A stretch of 64,000 bases of DNA, taken from NCBI RefSeq assembly GCF_002287075.1, contig NZ_NSKE01000004.1, positions 124,001 through 188,000 of the forward strand. Direction: 5' to 3'. Under the pieces are notes generated by a model. That model did not search any database. It saw nothing but the letters and a program-made list of their open reading frames with translations, and was not told the origin of the DNA. Every line of letters begins with the position of its first letter. Position 1 is the stretch's first letter. The position numbers and the translations under genes are program-made. Source of the DNA: Fodinibius salipaludis. Lineage in GTDB: Bacteria; Bacteroidota; Rhodothermia; Balneolales; Balneolaceae. Below are positions 49,797 through 57,456 of the stretch, one piece after another.

Positions 49797-51512
49797 ATGA
49801 ATATTTTAAATAATCTACTTAACGATTTGTTTTTACGAAAATACAGTTTCTGTAACTTACTGGGCCTACTACTTTCGTTAACCCTTCTATTTCCGATTTT
49901 AGTAACAGCTCAAGATTCAGGCGTACTTGCTACCAAAAAAGACTCCCTCCGCGGTTCAATAACTGCTGAACGGGATTGGTGGGACGTAGTTTATTACGAT
50001 TTACATGTTACTGTCCAGCCGGAGGACTCCTCCATCACTGGGTATAATAAGATCACCTATCGCGTTACCAAAGAACCGAAGCGTATGCAGATTGACCTGC
50101 AAGATCCGCTCACCATCGATCAGATAACACAAGACGGCCAAACACTTGATTACAGCAGGGCTGAAAACAGTTACGCCTATATGGTCGAAGTACCCGATAA
50201 TTTTAAAAAAGATTCGCTTTATACCATCTCAGTTTATTATCAGGGTAAACCGAAAGTAGCTGAAAACGCCCCATGGGACGGTGGATTTGTCTGGGAGCAG
50301 GACTCTCTCGGCAACCACTGGATTGCAACGGCCAACCAGGGATTGGGCGCCAGCGTCTGGTGGCCCAACAAGGATCATCAGTCTGCAGAACCCGACAGTA
50401 TGAGCATCAATATCACCGTTCCCGATGAAATTAAAAATGTCTCGAACGGACGTCTTCGTGACACTACCCAACATGATAACGGCATGACCACCTGGAGCTG
50501 GTTCGTATCCAATCCTATAAACAACTACAACATAGCCGTTAATGCCGGCAACTACGTAAATTTTAAGGATACGTACGAAGGTAAAAACGGCACGCTGGAT
50601 CTAAGCTATTGGGTGCTGGAACACAACCTGGGAAAAGCAAAAGAACAATTTCAGCAAGTTAAACCGATGATGCAGTGTTTTGAGGATTGGTTTGGACCGT
50701 ATCCCTTTTATGAGGACAGTTTTAAGCTGGTGGAAACCCCACACTTGGGAATGGAGCACCAAAGTGCGGTGGCTTACGGCAACGGATATCAAAATGGCTA
50801 TCGCGGCACCGATCTTTCCGGCTCGGGCTGGGGATTAAAATGGGATTTCATCATTATTCACGAAGCGGCTCACGAGTGGTGGGGCAACAGCATCACCACC
50901 AACGATGTGGCGGACATGTGGATACACGAAGGTTTTACCAGTTATTCGGAGTCCATTTATACCGAGTGCCGCTTCGGAAAGGAAGCAGGAGCTGAATACG
51001 CCCGAGGCATGCGCGACGGCATTGAAAACAAACAACCTATTACGGGAAAATATGGACTCAACAATGAAGGCTCCGGCGACATGTACAATAAGGCTCACAA
51101 CATGCTGCACATGATTCGTCAGATCGTGGATAATGACTCTACTTGGAAAAACATACTCCGCGGGATACAAAAAGAATTTCGTCATCAAATTGTAACTGCT
51201 GACCAAATTGAGCACTATATCATGGAACAGTCAGGGGAAGATCTGGATGACGTTTTCGATCAATACGTGCATTATGCTAATATCCCTACTTTCGAATATT
51301 ATATCAAAAATGATGTTCTGTTTTACCGGTGGAAAGCCGACGTCGATCATTTTGACATGCCCCTCAAAGTCACCTTAACCGATGGGAGCTATACATTTAT
51401 CTACCCATCAACAGATAGATGGAAGCGAAGTAATTTGTCACTTTCAGATACTAATAATTTTAAAATTGACAAGGATTTTTATATAAAAGCAGATTCTATA
51501 TCATCCCGATAA
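49797..51512 (+). CDS. M1-family metallopeptidase
   Basis: This 571-residue exported zinc aminopeptidase-like protein has a hydrophobic signal segment (about 15-38). An N-terminal beta domain precedes the catalytic domain with H355-EAAH359 (HEAAHEWWGN) and a downstream glutamate in WIHEGFTSYSES. The exopeptidase motif GxMEN appears as LGMEHQS, so the fourth position keeps the Glu but Asn is replaced by His. The C-terminal helical domain of large aminopeptidase N is missing, which makes it a short M1 form. It probably trims peptides in the periplasm. Confidence 0.88.
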   Translation: MNILNNLLNDLFLRKYSFCNLLGLLLSLTLLFPILVTAQDSGVLATKKDSLRGSITAERDWWDVVYYDLHVTVQPEDSSITGYNKITYRVTKEPKRMQIDLQDPLTIDQITQDGQTLDYSRAENSYAYMVEVPDNFKKDSLYTISVYYQGKPKVAENAPWDGGFVWEQDSLGNHWIATANQGLGASVWWPNKDHQSAEPDSMSINITVPDEIKNVSNGRLRDTTQHDNGMTTWSWFVSNPINNYNIAVNAGNYVNFKDTYEGKNGTLDLSYWVLEHNLGKAKEQFQQVKPMMQCFEDWFGPYPFYEDSFKLVETPHLGMEHQSAVAYGNGYQNGYRGTDLSGSGWGLKWDFIIIHEAAHEWWGNSITTNDVADMWIHEGFTSYSESIYTECRFGKEAGAEYARGMRDGIENKQPITGKYGLNNEGSGDMYNKAHNMLHMIRQIVDNDSTWKNILRGIQKEFRHQIVTADQIEHYIMEQSGEDLDDVFDQYVHYANIPTFEYYIKNDVLFYRWKADVDHFDMPLKVTLTDGSYTFIYPSTDRWKRSNLSLSDTNNFKIDKDFYIKADSISSR

Positions 51513-51513
51513 A

Positions 51514-51529
51514 ATGATACTTGTATCAT
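51514..51529. promoter_or_regulatory. 7-2-7 inverted repeat over the methionine operon promoter
   Basis: ATGATAC-TT-GTATCAT is a perfect inverted repeat centred on the -33 TTG (51521-51523) of the predicted promoter. This is the expected place for a repressor operator. It could also be a weak stem after the M1 gene, but no T run follows. Confidence 0.45.
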
Positions 51530-51551
51530 AACAGATAATCGATTATGTTTG
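51521..51551 (+). promoter_or_regulatory. Bacteroidota-type promoter of the methionine leader
   Basis: TTG (51521-51523), a 20-nt spacer and TATGTTTG (51544-51551) match the -33/-7 consensus TTG and TAnnTTTG. The start of transcription would be near 51557, about 20 nt before the leader ORF. Confidence 0.6.
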
Positions 51552-51575
51552 ATTTGAAATTCAAAAAACCAAGAC

Positions 51576-51653
51576 ATGAAACGAATACAAAAACATATTT
51601 GTCGCCTCTGTTGTATGTGCATGTGTATGCCGCACCTGCAACCGGAGGACTGA
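51576..51653 (+). CDS. Cys/Met leader peptide (attenuator ORF)
   Basis: This 25-codon frame has a middle reading CRLCCMCMCM: five Cys and three Met codons within ten positions. The start and end are ordinary (MKRIQKHI and PHLQPED). It lies directly after a predicted promoter and before an intrinsic terminator and a SAM riboswitch that control Met biosynthesis genes. Clustered regulatory amino-acid codons before a terminator are the classic design of ribosome-mediated attenuators (trp, his) and of Cys leader peptides. It is not expected to have a function as a protein. No strong ribosome site is seen. Confidence 0.7.
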   Translation: MKRIQKHICRLCCMCMCMPHLQPED

Positions 51654-51713
51654 TTCGTTTTACTCTTGTAAAACAGATTCAAAGCCCTTCGGTTAATCCC
51701 GAAAGGCTTTTTT
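51640..51713 (+). promoter_or_regulatory. Attenuator: antiterminator and terminator arms
   Basis: The terminator stem aaagcc-c-ttcgg / ccgaa-a-ggcttt (51681-51710) is followed by T6. The segment AACCGGAGG at the end of the leader ORF (51640-51648) can pair instead with CCTTCGGTT (51686-51694), 9 pairs with one G-U, which destroys the terminator. A small stem gttttac/gtaaaac (51657-51674) sits between. A ribosome finishing the ORF would cover the antiterminator arm and allow termination. One stalled at the Cys/Met codons would leave it free. Confidence 0.65.
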
Positions 51714-51749
51714 AGTTTTTGTACGATTGTTCTTTTGATTTAGTGAGCA

Positions 51750-51867
51750 CTCTTATCCAGAAAAGCTGAGGGATCAGGCCCGAAGACGCTTTGGCAACCG
51801 TCCCGCACTTCACCGTGCGGGGAAAAGGTGCCACTTCCTGCTCCGGTAACACGGGGAAAGATGAGAG
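51750..51867 (+). ncRNA. SAM-I (S-box) riboswitch
   Basis: P1 is CTCTTATC (51750-51757) with GATGAGAG (51860-51867). The conserved core is visible: gctgagggatcaggccc, ggcaaccgtccc, the P3 arm cccgcac/gtgcggg, and ggtgccacttcctgc. It senses S-adenosylmethionine and lies 148 bp before the first gene of the Met operon. It is expected to favour the following terminator when SAM is high. Confidence 0.93.
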
Positions 51868-51875
51868 AACAGGCC

Positions 51876-51895
51876 AAACTCATTGCGAGTTTTTT
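51876..51895 (+). terminator. Small hairpin with T run after the SAM aptamer
   Basis: AAACTC attgc GAGTTT is followed by further T residues, between the aptamer and the main terminator. It may be part of the expression platform. Confidence 0.45.
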
Positions 51896-51896
51896 A

Positions 51897-51951
51897 AGCC
51901 TCTTCTGAGATCTTTACCCCACCGGTGTAAGATCTTGGAAGAGGCTTTTTT
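51897..51951 (+). terminator. SAM riboswitch terminator
   Basis: The stem agcctcttc / gaagaggct (51897-51905, 51938-51946), with inner pairing agatctt/aagatct, is followed by T6. It is the likely off-state terminator of the riboswitch. Confidence 0.85.
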
Positions 51952-52015
51952 ATTTGCATGAAATTTAAAATCCACGGATCAAAAACTCCGAAGAATATTA
52001 CGAACTAACAACATT

Positions 52016-52513
52016 ATGAAGTCAACATTTAACAACTGGTACGACAAAAAGATGCGAGCGACAGAAGAGCTCAGTGCCGAAACCGATCGCGCCGAGAAAA
52101 CGCTGGCAAATATATCCACTATCGCTATTGTGGGACTGTCGCGCAGTTTTCATAAAGACAGCCAGTTTGTAGCCCGCTACCTCCAAAATGCCGGATATAA
52201 CATCGTACCGGTAAATCCCAATGCAGATACCATTCTGGGTAAAGAATCCTATCCGGATCTCAAAAGTATCCCTCATCCCATTGATGCAGTAGATGTATTT
52301 CTGCCGTCCGATCATATACATAAAGCAGTTGACCAGGCTGTGGAATTGGAACCAAAGCCGAGAGCAATATGGCTGCAACTGGGAACCGGTGAACAACCTA
52401 AAGAAATAGAGAAAGTGAAAGGAACGGGAATTGAGATTTACGAAAACCGCTGCATCAAAGTGGATCACCAATTTTTGATACGACCGAAAAAAGAATCAAC
52501 CAATAACAACTAA
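52016..52513 (+). CDS. CoA-binding domain protein (YccU-like)
   Basis: This 165-residue protein has a CoA-binding Rossmann domain (about 28-150), with the nucleotide loop IAIVGLSRSFHKDS and the following NAGYNIVPVNPN and LPSDHI segments. Stand-alone members of this family often sit before sulfur-amino-acid genes, and here it opens the SAM-riboswitch operon ahead of metY. It may act in acyl-CoA or O-acetylhomoserine handling, but no reaction is established. metY begins 18 bp downstream. Confidence 0.85.
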   Translation: MKSTFNNWYDKKMRATEELSAETDRAEKTLANISTIAIVGLSRSFHKDSQFVARYLQNAGYNIVPVNPNADTILGKESYPDLKSIPHPIDAVDVFLPSDHIHKAVDQAVELEPKPRAIWLQLGTGEQPKEIEKVKGTGIEIYENRCIKVDHQFLIRPKKESTNNN

Positions 52514-53863
<1,350 letters not shown>

Positions 53864-53986: not shown

Positions 53987-55039
53987 TTGAACACAATGAG
54001 CAACAACCAATCACATACATTTGAAAAACCGTTTGTTACCGAGGGCGGAGCTACAATACCTGAGCCAACGATAGCATATCAAACGTGGGGTGAGTTAAAT
54101 AGCCAACGTGATAATGTCATTCTGGTCTGTCATGCCCTAACCGGCAATACCGCTGTTGACGAGTGGTTCCAGGGAATATTTAGTAAAGGGAAAGCACTTG
54201 ATCCCAATAAGCACTTCATTATTTGTCCCAATGTTTTGGGCAGCTGCTATGGATCAAGTGGTCCTACTTCGATCAACCCTGAAACCGAAAAACCATACCG
54301 GGCTGATTTTCCCAAAGTTACTATTCGCGATATCGTACGGCTGCAACAACAACTTTTTGACGAACTCGATATCAACAAGATAGAACTCGTTATCGGTGGA
54401 TCAATGGGTGGCATGCAGGCACTGGAATGGTGTATTATGGATGAACGCCCGCAGTCAGCTGTATTAGTTGGGATGGGTGAAAAACATCGTCCCTGGGCGA
54501 TTGGCATAAGTCATACCCAGCGCCAGGCTATTTATAATGATCCCAGCTGGGACGGTGGATTCTACTCCGAAGACGATCCCCCTAAAAAAGGATTGGCACT
54601 GGCACGTATGATTGCGATGAACAGCTATCGGCACCCCTCCGATTTTGATAAAAAATTCGGTCGGCGATTGCAAGAAGGAAAATCCCAATACGAAGTAGAA
54701 TCGTATCTCAGCTACCAAGGCAAAAAGCTCGTTGACCGGTTTGATGCGGTTTCCTATGTACGTCTCACTCAGGCGATGGATTCTCACGATATCAGGCGAA
54801 GTCGCCCCAAAATAAGGAAAACGATTGCCGGTTTAACTATTCCTATTGCGGTTGTAGGCATCGACAGCGACATGCTTTATCCCGCAAAAGAATGTCAGGA
54901 CCTGGCAAATCAATTACCAAACAGTCGGTACAAAGAAATTACATCGCCGCATGGTCACGACGCATTTTTAATCGAATTCGATCAGCTTAACTCTATTGTA
55001 AAATCACTTCAAACAGAACTATCTCAAAAAGCAGTTTAA
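53987..55039 (+). CDS. metX: Homoserine O-acetyltransferase
   Basis: This 350-residue alpha/beta-hydrolase-fold enzyme transfers acetyl from acetyl-CoA to homoserine. The nucleophile S139 lies in IGGSMGGMQALEW. The catalytic His is in SPHGHDAFL and the Asp in GIDSDMLYPA. An AGGA ribosome site 5 nt away favours TTG 53987, and ATG 53996 would remove three residues. thrA follows 5 bp downstream. MetX product specificity (acetyl versus succinyl) cannot be fully fixed, but pairing with metY supports acetyl. Confidence 0.93.
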   Translation: MNTMSNNQSHTFEKPFVTEGGATIPEPTIAYQTWGELNSQRDNVILVCHALTGNTAVDEWFQGIFSKGKALDPNKHFIICPNVLGSCYGSSGPTSINPETEKPYRADFPKVTIRDIVRLQQQLFDELDINKIELVIGGSMGGMQALEWCIMDERPQSAVLVGMGEKHRPWAIGISHTQRQAIYNDPSWDGGFYSEDDPPKKGLALARMIAMNSYRHPSDFDKKFGRRLQEGKSQYEVESYLSYQGKKLVDRFDAVSYVRLTQAMDSHDIRRSRPKIRKTIAGLTIPIAVVGIDSDMLYPAKECQDLANQLPNSRYKEITSPHGHDAFLIEFDQLNSIVKSLQTELSQKAV

Positions 55040-55044
55040 TAGCA

Positions 55045-57456
55045 ATGTCACATTCAGAAACACATATCTTAAAATTCGGCGGTTCTTCACTGAAAAATGC
55101 CTCACTCATAAATCAGTCGGCTAACATTGTTGCTGGCCATATGCAAAAGGCACATCCGATTGTAGTTGTTTCGGCCATCGGTGGTGTTACTGATACGCTC
55201 ATCGAATTAACCAATCTTGATCAAAAAACGGAACACAAATCATGCCGTATTATTAATGATCTGGAACTTAGGCATCGCCGCATTTTCGATGAAGTAGCAT
55301 CTGTCAGCCACCCTAATCGGGGGGACCTTCAAGACCTATTCGGTCGACTTAGGACCACTTTTGATGATAAAAGCTTAAAAAGTGAGCATTATCAAGCGTG
55401 GAAAGACCAAATATTGTCTATCGGCGAACGGGCCTCTGCACTCATATTTTCCGCAGCGTTATCAGAACAGCAGATAGAATCAACTGCTCACGAGTCATCT
55501 CATTTTGTAAAGACAGATTCTACATTTGGCAAGGCACGGGTACAGCGTGATGCTACACGAAAATTAATTAGGAAGTTTATCAACCAATCACAGGCTGTAC
55601 CTGTTATTACCGGCTTTATTGGCTCTAACGAGAAGCAGCAAATTACTACGCTTGGTCGATCGGGCTCGGACTACTCGGCCGGACTTATTGCTGATGCTCT
55701 TGATGCCGATCACCTTGAAATCTGGACGGATGTGGACGGAGTTCTCACAGCCGATCCGCGCTGGGTACCGGATGCAGAATCTATTGAACAGCTCAGTTTT
55801 GGCGATATTTCCGAACTTTCAGCCCACGGCGCCCGTGTCATTCATCCCAAAACCATACAACCCATCCAAAACAAAAAAACCACCGTGTTAGTTAAAAACA
55901 GCTACAATCCTGAGCACCCCGGCACACTCATTACTTCAGATTTTGACACCAATGGGTCACTTAAAACGATCGCCATTACCGGTCCGTTTGTAAGACTGCA
56001 GATCGATCAGAAATACGCTTACGATCTGTTTGAAAAACTGAACAAATGGAGCGCTGACAACCCCAATACAAAACCAATAGAATTTAGACAGCAATCAGAA
56101 TTTGAGGCAGTTCGATTCTCGCTAAAACAATCCTTTTTCGAAGACATCAAAGAACAGCTTTCGGCATGGGCGGCCAAGCAAAATACGCTCTTTAATCTTG
56201 ATGATAACCTATATAAGGTAAAAAAATTCAGCAACCAGTTTAATAAAGGAGAGCAACTATCAGGACGGGTCATTTCGCTGCTCGCAAAAAACAATATTCA
56301 ACCGTTACACACCGAACGGAACTACGACGAACGCTTTATCTCCTTCTTACTACCTGAGGATGAAGCCCGTCGGGCAGCGCATTTGATTAACAATGCCATT
56401 TCTAAAACTAAGCCTGTCATCGACCTTTTTATAGCCGGCACCGGAGCTGTCGGAAAGACACTGCTTAACCAACTTAACAAGCTAAAAACCACTGATATTG
56501 AATTCAGGCTGATCGGCACCTGCAATAGTCGCAATACACTTTGGAATACAGATGGAATAAATTTAGATACAACCCTAAACTGGGATGAAGCCGAACAAAC
56601 AAACTGGGATACCCTGCTGGACAAACTCACCAAAAACCAACATCGAGATCTTATTTTTGTAGATGCTACAGGAAGCGAAGAAGTGGCACGTCTGTATCCC
56701 AAATTGTTTGCCAACACAATTCACGTAGTTACCCCCAGCAAATTAGCTAATACATTTGAGCAGTCATTTTTCGACAAACTGCAAAGCCTAATTCAAAAGC
56801 ATCATTCCTCCTTCAACTATGAAACGACCGTTGGAGCCGGCCTGCCGGTTATCTCTACGATCGAAGAGTTACAATCGACAGGGAATAAAATTACTGAAAT
56901 ATCGGGCGTAGTTTCCGGAACAATGACCTATCTTTTTAACCAACTCGAACAGGATGTCCCCTTTAGTAAGGCTATAGCTGATGCGCGTAAAAAAGGCTAC
57001 GCCGAACCCGATCCCCGTGACGACCTCTCCGGGGAAGATGTAGCTCGTAAGTTTTTAACCCTGGCTCGTACCCTTGGTATCAAAATAGAACGGGAGGAAT
57101 TGCAAGTGGAATCATTAATTCCAAAAGAGCTAAAAGATGTTGATGGCAAAACCTTTTTGGGAAAGTTGTCAGATTATGACAGCGAATGGAAACAACGTAT
57201 CCGTTCTGCCCAAGAACGTAATGAGACACTCCGTTACACCGGCAAACTTAAAGATGGTAACATAACAATTGGAATAGAATCTGTTCCTCAGGACTCTCCT
57301 CTCGGACAGCTTAAAGGAACCGATAACCTCATTCAGATTTATTCTGAATTTTATAATCAAACGCCCTTGGTTATTCAAGGTCCTGGGGCTGGAAAAGAAG
57401 TTACAGCAGCCGGTGTGCTTAGTGATATCCTAAAAACTGTGGAGCAGCTAACCTGA
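55045..57456 (+). CDS. thrA: Bifunctional aspartokinase / homoserine dehydrogenase
   Basis: This 803-residue fusion supplies homoserine for Met and Thr. The aspartokinase part (about 1-295) has KFGGSSLKNA and the GRSGSDYSA motif. ACT-like regulatory segments occupy about 310-440. The homoserine dehydrogenase part (about 450-803) has the nucleotide loop GTGAVGKTLL and the catalytic region GYAEPDPRDDLSG. It starts 5 bp after metX, so the riboswitch operon carries the whole route from aspartate kinase to homocysteine, except Asd and the sulfide supply. Confidence 0.95.
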   Translation: MSHSETHILKFGGSSLKNASLINQSANIVAGHMQKAHPIVVVSAIGGVTDTLIELTNLDQKTEHKSCRIINDLELRHRRIFDEVASVSHPNRGDLQDLFGRLRTTFDDKSLKSEHYQAWKDQILSIGERASALIFSAALSEQQIESTAHESSHFVKTDSTFGKARVQRDATRKLIRKFINQSQAVPVITGFIGSNEKQQITTLGRSGSDYSAGLIADALDADHLEIWTDVDGVLTADPRWVPDAESIEQLSFGDISELSAHGARVIHPKTIQPIQNKKTTVLVKNSYNPEHPGTLITSDFDTNGSLKTIAITGPFVRLQIDQKYAYDLFEKLNKWSADNPNTKPIEFRQQSEFEAVRFSLKQSFFEDIKEQLSAWAAKQNTLFNLDDNLYKVKKFSNQFNKGEQLSGRVISLLAKNNIQPLHTERNYDERFISFLLPEDEARRAAHLINNAISKTKPVIDLFIAGTGAVGKTLLNQLNKLKTTDIEFRLIGTCNSRNTLWNTDGINLDTTLNWDEAEQTNWDTLLDKLTKNQHRDLIFVDATGSEEVARLYPKLFANTIHVVTPSKLANTFEQSFFDKLQSLIQKHHSSFNYETTVGAGLPVISTIEELQSTGNKITEISGVVSGTMTYLFNQLEQDVPFSKAIADARKKGYAEPDPRDDLSGEDVARKFLTLARTLGIKIEREELQVESLIPKELKDVDGKTFLGKLSDYDSEWKQRIRSAQERNETLRYTGKLKDGNITIGIESVPQDSPLGQLKGTDNLIQIYSEFYNQTPLVIQGPGAGKEVTAAGVLSDILKTVEQLT

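Follow-up and report, generated by a model that had tools for sequence, protein, structure and literature searches.

A putative trp-type attenuator with mixed cysteine and methionine codons precedes a SAM-I riboswitch at the metY operon of Balneolaceae

The textbook example of how methionine genes are controlled is the SAM riboswitch. In the 64,000-nucleotide stretch of Fodinibius salipaludis DNA that we analyzed (hereafter the window), a metY operon carries such a riboswitch, and a short open reading frame (ORF) crowded with Cys and Met codons, followed by an intrinsic terminator, stands in front of it. Why does this operon have a second terminator, and what could the short ORF be reading? 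All elements lie on one strand (+), in the order leader ORF, terminator 1, SAM-I riboswitch and metY operon, and the closest named metY loci belong to Fodinibius/Aliifodinibius (Balneolaceae, Balneolota). Judged from the sequence and its conservation, the upstream element is very probably a ribosome-mediated attenuator of transcription, like those of trp and his, in series with the SAM-I riboswitch before metY. Its leader would read the charging of Cys-tRNA and Met-tRNA jointly. The features of the locus are as follows.

51521–51551, + strand: candidate promoter (TTGT at 51521–51524; TTATGTTTG at 51543–51551)
51576–51653, + strand: leader peptide ORF MKRIQKHICRLCCMCMCMPHLQPED, stop included (25 codons; kind kept in 74 of 82 metY SAM-I loci)
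51577–51586, + strand: start-region stem, 5' strand, pairing with 51653–51662 (permutation test over 72 leaders)
51600–51629, + strand: regulatory codons (codons 9–18; five Cys and three Met)
51605–51615, + strand: region 1, over Cys codons, pairing with 51637–51648 (folds; permutation test)
51637–51651, + strand: region 2, 5' strand of the antiterminator, extending to the stop codon (folds; covariation)
51651–51653, + strand: stop codon TGA of the leader, near the antiterminator
51653–51662, + strand: start-region stem, 3' strand, at and just past the stop codon, pairing with 51577–51586
51682–51694, + strand: region 3, 5' arm of the terminator and 3' strand of the antiterminator (folds)
51682–51713, + strand: intrinsic terminator 1 (hairpin 51682–51709; T-run 51708–51713)
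51750–51867, + strand: SAM-I riboswitch aptamer (RF00162; 81.9 bits against a gathering threshold of 44.4)
51896–51951, + strand: terminator 2, presumably the riboswitch's expression platform (long hairpin and T-run)
52016–52513, + strand: gene of a CoA_binding_2 protein, the first 3' of the riboswitch (Pfam PF13380)
52532–53863, + strand: metY, O-acetylhomoserine sulfhydrylase (PF01053; TIGR01326, 682.6 bits, cut-off 495.1)
53987–55039, + strand: metX-like homoserine O-acetyltransferase gene (PF00561; NF001209, 396 bits, cut-off 331)
55045–57456, + strand: bifunctional aspartokinase/homoserine dehydrogenase gene (PF00696, PF00742, PF03447)

The earlier note on this DNA had described a 25-codon ORF with five Cys and three Met codons inside ten positions, followed by an intrinsic terminator. 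Both are present. Cys is encoded at codons 9, 12, 13, 15 and 17 and Met at codons 14, 16 and 18, and the leader ORF is the sole place in the six frames of the window with at least seven Cys/Met codons in ten. The locus thus has the short ORF rich in codons of the regulated amino acid that marks leader-peptide attenuators, and a terminator between that ORF and the operon. The terminator consists of the hairpin at 51682–51709 and its T-run, although it contains one C-A mismatch (51687 with 51704) in the source genome, where G is found in the 11 other aligned Fodinibius leaders. The riboswitch aptamer begins 36 nt beyond the T-run of terminator 1 and is the single RF00162 match in the source genome. 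The fold of 51745–51965 (z = -5.52) contains the hairpin of terminator 2.

The trp, his and thr attenuators of Proteobacteria combine a short ORF of regulatory codons with mutually exclusive antiterminator and terminator helices and a stop codon near the antiterminator. The pairing that the earlier note had proposed between the end of the ORF (51640–51648) and the 5' arm of the terminator (51686–51694) was reproduced, with nine contiguous pairs including one G-U, and two further pairs follow after one mismatch. The fold of 51560–51715 has a z-score of -5.45, and none of 200 shuffles was equally stable. Moreover, the pairing of region 1 with 51637–51648 overlaps the antiterminator strand, giving the 1:2, 2:3, 3:4 layout of the trp attenuator. 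Three features go beyond the earlier note: this 1:2 hairpin over the Cys codons, the SAM-I riboswitch and the start-region stem. The start-region stem may hold an untranslated leader closed, or it may control initiation. Searches with Rfam models found no T-box at the gathering threshold in the window and none at E ≤5 in 51500–52020, and no known leader family above gathering at 51576–51713; the best leader-type match in 51500–52020 was Phe_leader, at 16.8 bits against 55.

We searched 92 Balneolaceae genomes with RF00162 and obtained 104 SAM-I matches in 82 genomes, one of them (L184) below the cut-off. Twenty-two of the 104 precede metH, recognized by its DGAMGTM motif, and all 82 remaining loci have a metY match downstream by tblastn. 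The earlier note had staked its reading on relatives that keep the operon also keeping the ORF. This stood for 74 of the 82 metY SAM-I loci, which retain leader and terminator, and failed for eight, which keep the operon without a leader, in G036, in G060 and in six members of a single genus (G080, G081, G082, G084, G086 and G088). This leaderless genus has small genomes that keep the SAM-I box at metY (L144, L153, L155, L157, L164 and L184, in G082, G086, G084, G088, G080 and G081), with the apparent C-terminus of an Era-like gene preceding the box. The terminators of 73 leaders were found by script and that of L112 by hand. Scored by one rule, the 74 leaders reached 7 to 16 (median 11), with 61 at 10 or more, while the 22 metH SAM-I loci stayed at 6 or below, none reaching 7. 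Dinucleotide shuffles scored at least 7 in 63 of 1480 cases and at least 10 in 2 of 1480. The removal of two identical sequences left 72 distinct leaders, each with at least two Cys codons and at least one internal Met codon.

To assess the pairings across the family, partners were swapped among the 72 distinct leaders in 5000 permutations per pairing. Complementarity exceeded every permutation in all four cases: 19.31 for the antiterminator with the 5' arm (best permutation 17.88), 24.03 for the 5' arm with the 3' arm (21.61), 16.03 for the start region with the post-stop segment (14.92) and 17.65 for the codon core with the antiterminator (16.9), each with 0/5000, figures that are not strict probabilities because relatedness is ignored. 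In counts anchored on the best helix register of each leader, a choice biased toward pairing, the two or three innermost antiterminator positions paired in 99–100% of leaders and the outer ones in 51–94%, some of them dropping to 51–83%, and three positions showed G-C/A-U counts of 33/25, 20/23 and 44/11. The alignment of 12 genomes of the genus gave no excess of antiterminator covariation over shuffles (140 of 500 as high). The terminator-excluding antiterminator therefore shows covariation family-wide, whereas the genus alone does not rise above shuffles. In the 12 genus leaders, 96.7% of the cells of the start-region stem were paired, with double changes at two pairs, and several pairs between regions 1 and 2 were broken in 4 to 7 of the 12 members. 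RNAalifold predicted only 3 pairs from a MAFFT alignment of the 72 leaders, probably because leader lengths differ, and we relied on the permutation tests and anchored counts instead. The earlier note had also asked whether stop position and pairings would be kept together in relatives: the antiterminator is maintained close to the stop codon, and its pairs show family-wide covariation.

An M1-peptidase gene on the same strand ends at 51512, and the hairpin might be merely the 3' terminator of that gene, with the ORF arising by chance. By a rough measure, the longest upstream ORF does lie on the same strand in 58 of 73 loci. In the other 15, however, it lies on the opposite strand; among six of these scanned, four were recognized by Pfam (three GSDH and one PGK) and two had no match. 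A promoter-like motif is located between the M1-peptidase gene and the leader ORF, and its TTGT and TTA..TT elements are each kept in 85% or more of 12 Fodinibius leaders, where their distance from the start codon is nearly constant. The codon bias is conserved, and the pairings covary. On the promoter-like motif, the codon bias and the opposite-strand upstream genes, we rejected a terminator of the upstream gene, which we regard as scarcely credible, and retained the attenuator reading.

If a translating ribosome controls the antiterminator, the position of the antiterminator relative to the regulatory codons becomes informative. The best antiterminator helix lay within 14 nt of the stop end in 73 of 74 leaders, and at +3 in L112, placed by hand; the purine core of the antiterminator strand starts anywhere from 10 nt upstream of the stop end to 5 nt downstream of it. 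The distance that separates the antiterminator from the last clustered Cys/Met codon had a median of 15 nt (SD 3.5, range 7–23), falling at 15–17 nt in 36 of 72 leaders and at 11–21 nt in 63 of 72. The distance from that codon to the stop varied more (SD 6.4), as did that from the antiterminator to the stop (SD 5.3). The antiterminator position thus tracks the last Cys/Met codon more closely than the codon-to-stop distance holds, with a correlation between the two positions of r = 0.84, which is inflated by relatedness and dominated by a few position classes. Judged by ribosome footprints, an antiterminator about 15 nt away would just escape coverage by a ribosome halted at the final regulatory codon.

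We also used a simple masking model in which the RNA ends before the 3' arm of the terminator and the antiterminator is counted when its probability exceeds 0.5. With a ribosome on a Cys/Met codon the antiterminator was predicted in 71 of 71 leaders, in a stall scan that ends when the leading edge of the ribosome comes within 12 nt of the stop end, covers part of the Cys/Met codons and gave no value for L177. With the ribosome at the stop codon it was predicted in 10 of 72. The proposal of the earlier note that completion of the ORF masks region 2 and stalling exposes it is thus supported by the spacing and, within its simplifications, by the model. The antiterminator exceeded 0.5 in 46 of 72 leaders without any ribosome, suggesting that a protective 1:2 hairpin may not be a general feature; such a hairpin does appear in the fold of the source window, and the pairing of codon core and antiterminator passed the permutation test. 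On the complete RNA, the median terminator probability was 1.00 without a ribosome, 1.00 with one at the stop and 0.99 with one stalled. As the terminator is favored in every ribosome state on the complete RNA, antitermination would have to be kinetic.

The codon conservation, mutually exclusive pairings, covariation and spacing strongly support a mechanism like that of the trp attenuator and agree with the trp/his logic suggested by the earlier note. We infer the following course of transcription, translation, stalling and termination. RNA polymerase would transcribe the leader with a ribosome trailing behind. When Cys- and Met-tRNA are well charged, the ribosome would run to the stop codon at 51651 and cover the antiterminator strand (51640–51651), so that the terminator at 51682–51709 could form and transcription would end. 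When either tRNA is poorly charged, the ribosome would stall within 51600–51629 and leave region 2 free to pair with region 3 (51682–51694), and the polymerase would continue to the SAM-I riboswitch, which would terminate in turn at high SAM. Because the two terminators are in series, read-through would need both low charging and low SAM, and the operon would be fully on only at low Cys or Met charging plus low SAM. At high SAM, Cys could come from the SAM cycle.

Why should one leader read both amino acids? Homocysteine, the product of MetY, probably gives rise both to Met and, through reverse transsulfuration, to Cys, which would account for a leader that reads both. A cystathionine gamma-synthase-type gene in the source genome (L267) scored over the model cut-off, and a CBS- or cysteine-synthase-like gene (L260) stayed under every cut-off, the best match being TIGR01137 with 468 of 510 bits. 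No cysE gene exceeded the cut-off in the 12 genus genomes (173 bits in G016, below 50 in the others); this is weak evidence for its absence because the cut-off was reached in just 8 of 14 control genomes and G016 scored 173 bits. Cys is therefore likely derived from homocysteine, with MetY feeding both amino acids. The absence of a leader at the metH SAM-I loci fits a MetY that supplies both Cys and Met.

To follow the leader beyond the known loci, we built a covariance model from the 72 leaders and searched 244 genomes of the class with it; 76 had a match at E ≤0.001. Among 394 genomes of the phylum, as delimited in the search set, 120 had one at E ≤0.02, Balneolaceae included. Ten class matches lay outside the known leaders and all were inspected. 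One (L215) is a Cys/Met leader from a different family within the order. Four Balneolaceae genomes (L218, L219, L220 and L224) have long Cys/Met leaders and terminators before rhodanese-like genes, identified by Pfam for L218. When the 12 genus genomes were searched with an exact Cys/Met DNA pattern, one matched, G015, at its rhodanese leader. The remaining five class matches (L216, L217, L221, L222 and L223) showed no corresponding leader, and we regard them as chance matches.

Twenty stretches, most of them among the high-ranking non-Balneolaceae matches, made up the first batch of the phylum search. Leaders with Cys and Met codons were present at all 18 non-Balneolaceae loci, upstream of 13 metY genes, two cysH-like genes and one each of a cysK-like, a solute-binding protein and a metN-like gene; Pfam searches covered 8 of these 18 downstream proteins as well as the trpE product of the source genome. 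The cysH-like genes start 450 and 500 nt beyond the leader and the solute-binding protein gene 323 nt beyond it. Five of the 13 metY loci, from one family (f27; L242, L245, L247, L249 and L257), have Met/Cys leader attenuators in tandem pairs. The other two stretches were Trp leaders before trpE, in the source genome and in G019. That of the source genome (L258, G000:C36:238399-238546, minus strand) is a classical trp attenuator with the leader MKKSAHKNISWWWPVKQHTQAVAFL, arranged like the Cys/Met leader. Among 20 weaker matches taken as a second batch were 8 Cys/Met leaders before metY and four Trp leaders before trpE, with Pfam run on 8 downstream proteins and the others assigned by their N-termini. 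The second batch also included an OsmC-like gene preceded by a Met-rich leader (MQITSLHMATSSMHMTMCMMRYFV; L295), an aspartokinase gene whose leader has eight Thr and four Ile codons (L286:340-479) and a three-His leader before hisG (L285:338-465). Five matches (L280, L287, L288, L290 and L293) lacked a matching leader and were taken as chance.

The order of leader, terminator, SAM-I riboswitch and metY recurs in two loci of Ignavibacteria (L066 and L073), and leader and SAM-I are combined in L246 and L248 as well. In two other Ignavibacteria, Stygiobacter (L084) and a member of Melioribacteraceae (L092), metY directly follows a Met-only leader and its terminator, with no SAM-I match at either locus. 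Among 80 named metY loci, a stricter Cys-based rule found Cys/Met ORFs in few loci outside Balneolaceae, indicating that the leader is far from universal at metY. In a Cytophagales MAG, the segment from the SAM-I riboswitch to metY contains a Cys/Met ORF whose end reads MSICCGMCMRCC (L088:3823-3861), with no obvious terminator. Cys-rich ORFs before metY at three Nostoc loci appeared, by eye, to belong to a coding sequence and were set aside. Mixed Cys/Met leaders occur well beyond Balneolaceae. We somewhat favor the broader view that Balneolaceae, Ignavibacteria and other Bacteroidota/Chlorobiota have in common a control system for sulfur amino acids, made of leader-peptide attenuators that read Cys- and Met-tRNA charging jointly. 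The codon mix (Met-only, mixed or Cys-rich) would be tuned to each gene, with tandem copies in some genomes and a stack on SAM-I in others, where a single transcript would integrate tRNA charging with the SAM level.

A leader crowded with Cys and Met might also act through its peptide, either as a nascent chain that stalls in response to a metabolite or as a metal-binding peptide, since Cys/Met clusters look like metal-binding stretches. The order and spacing of the Cys and Met residues differ among leaders, however, and it is the codon cluster that the antiterminator position tracks. In the loci inspected, codon identity also matches the pathway of the downstream gene: Trp with trpE, Thr with aspartokinase, His with hisG, and Cys/Met with metY and with cysH-, cysK- and metN-like genes. 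We thus consider a peptide sensor very improbable and keep to a leader that reads tRNA charging.

Is it then both tRNAs that are read? Cys-tRNA alone might be sensed, with the Met codons as passengers that serve RNA structure or come with the easy alternation of ATG and TGT. Cys does outnumber Met in the 72 distinct leaders (19.1% against 13.8% of 1601 post-start residues), and the leader of one cysK-like gene contains a run of three Cys codons. On the other hand, 68 of the 72 leaders contain at least two internal Met codons, Met exceeds Cys in many leaders outside the family, and two relatives have Met-only leaders before metY. Sensing of Cys alone therefore appears unlikely, and the proposed sensing of Met as well as Cys is well supported by the codon record. 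The Met-only leaders in the two relatives and Met-rich leaders elsewhere support, without proving, that Met is sensed in its own right.

Leaders that mix codons for two amino acids are known from thrL and ilvL. Compared with the trp, his and thr attenuators of Proteobacteria, the leader described here differs in mixing Cys with Met, in preceding a sulfur amino acid operon, in standing in series with a SAM-I riboswitch and in its occurrence in Balneolaceae and their relatives. Short ORFs with runs of Cys codons before cys or cbs genes have been described in Mycobacterium, Propionibacterium and Bifidobacterium, and the passages of that paper on the Mycobacterium leaders report that no conserved terminator hairpin was found (PMC1262725). 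In contrast to those actinobacterial leaders, as they are presented there, our source locus has an intrinsic terminator, an antiterminator and Met codons (PMC1262725). The uORFC-8-2 motif before cysS in Rhodobacterales, which combines Cys codons in tandem with a stem that resembles a terminator and has a U-run, was proposed to be a ribosome-mediated attenuator (PMC8632094). It differs in having two conserved Cys codons, in its association with cysS and in belonging to alpha-proteobacteria, and the passages that describe it mention neither Met codons nor a riboswitch (PMC8632094).

In Xanthomonas campestris, the SAM-I riboswitch of the met operon leader is reported to bind uncharged initiator tRNA (PMC7270179). 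By that account, it shares with our locus the joining of SAM sensing and a tRNA-charging signal in one met leader; the expression platform itself binds the tRNA there and acts mainly on translation, whereas a separate translated leader would act upstream of the aptamer here (PMC7270179). Within Bacteroidota, leader-peptide attenuation before amino acid biosynthesis operons is described for Flavobacterium psychrophilum; the main text of that paper does not contain the word methionine and uses cysteine only for a protease, and its Table S7 or SI D9 may list such a leader (PMC9723704). In the open-licence PMC literature we found no report of a mixed Cys/Met leader, prior notice being possible in the supplement of PMC9723704, and none in which a leader peptide and a SAM riboswitch are arranged in series. 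What appears new is a putative trp-type attenuator with mixed Cys and Met codons that stands in series with a SAM-I riboswitch, is kept in Balneolaceae and recurs beyond them.

A single natural transcript thus appears to integrate Cys/Met charging and SAM, two signals read by two mechanisms. Balneolaceae have the leader at metY, the gene of homocysteine synthesis, and none at the SAM-I boxes of metH. If our reading is true, the metY operon of these bacteria would carry a natural two-input transcriptional gate, and it would provide a search model that could reveal more leader peptides in the group.
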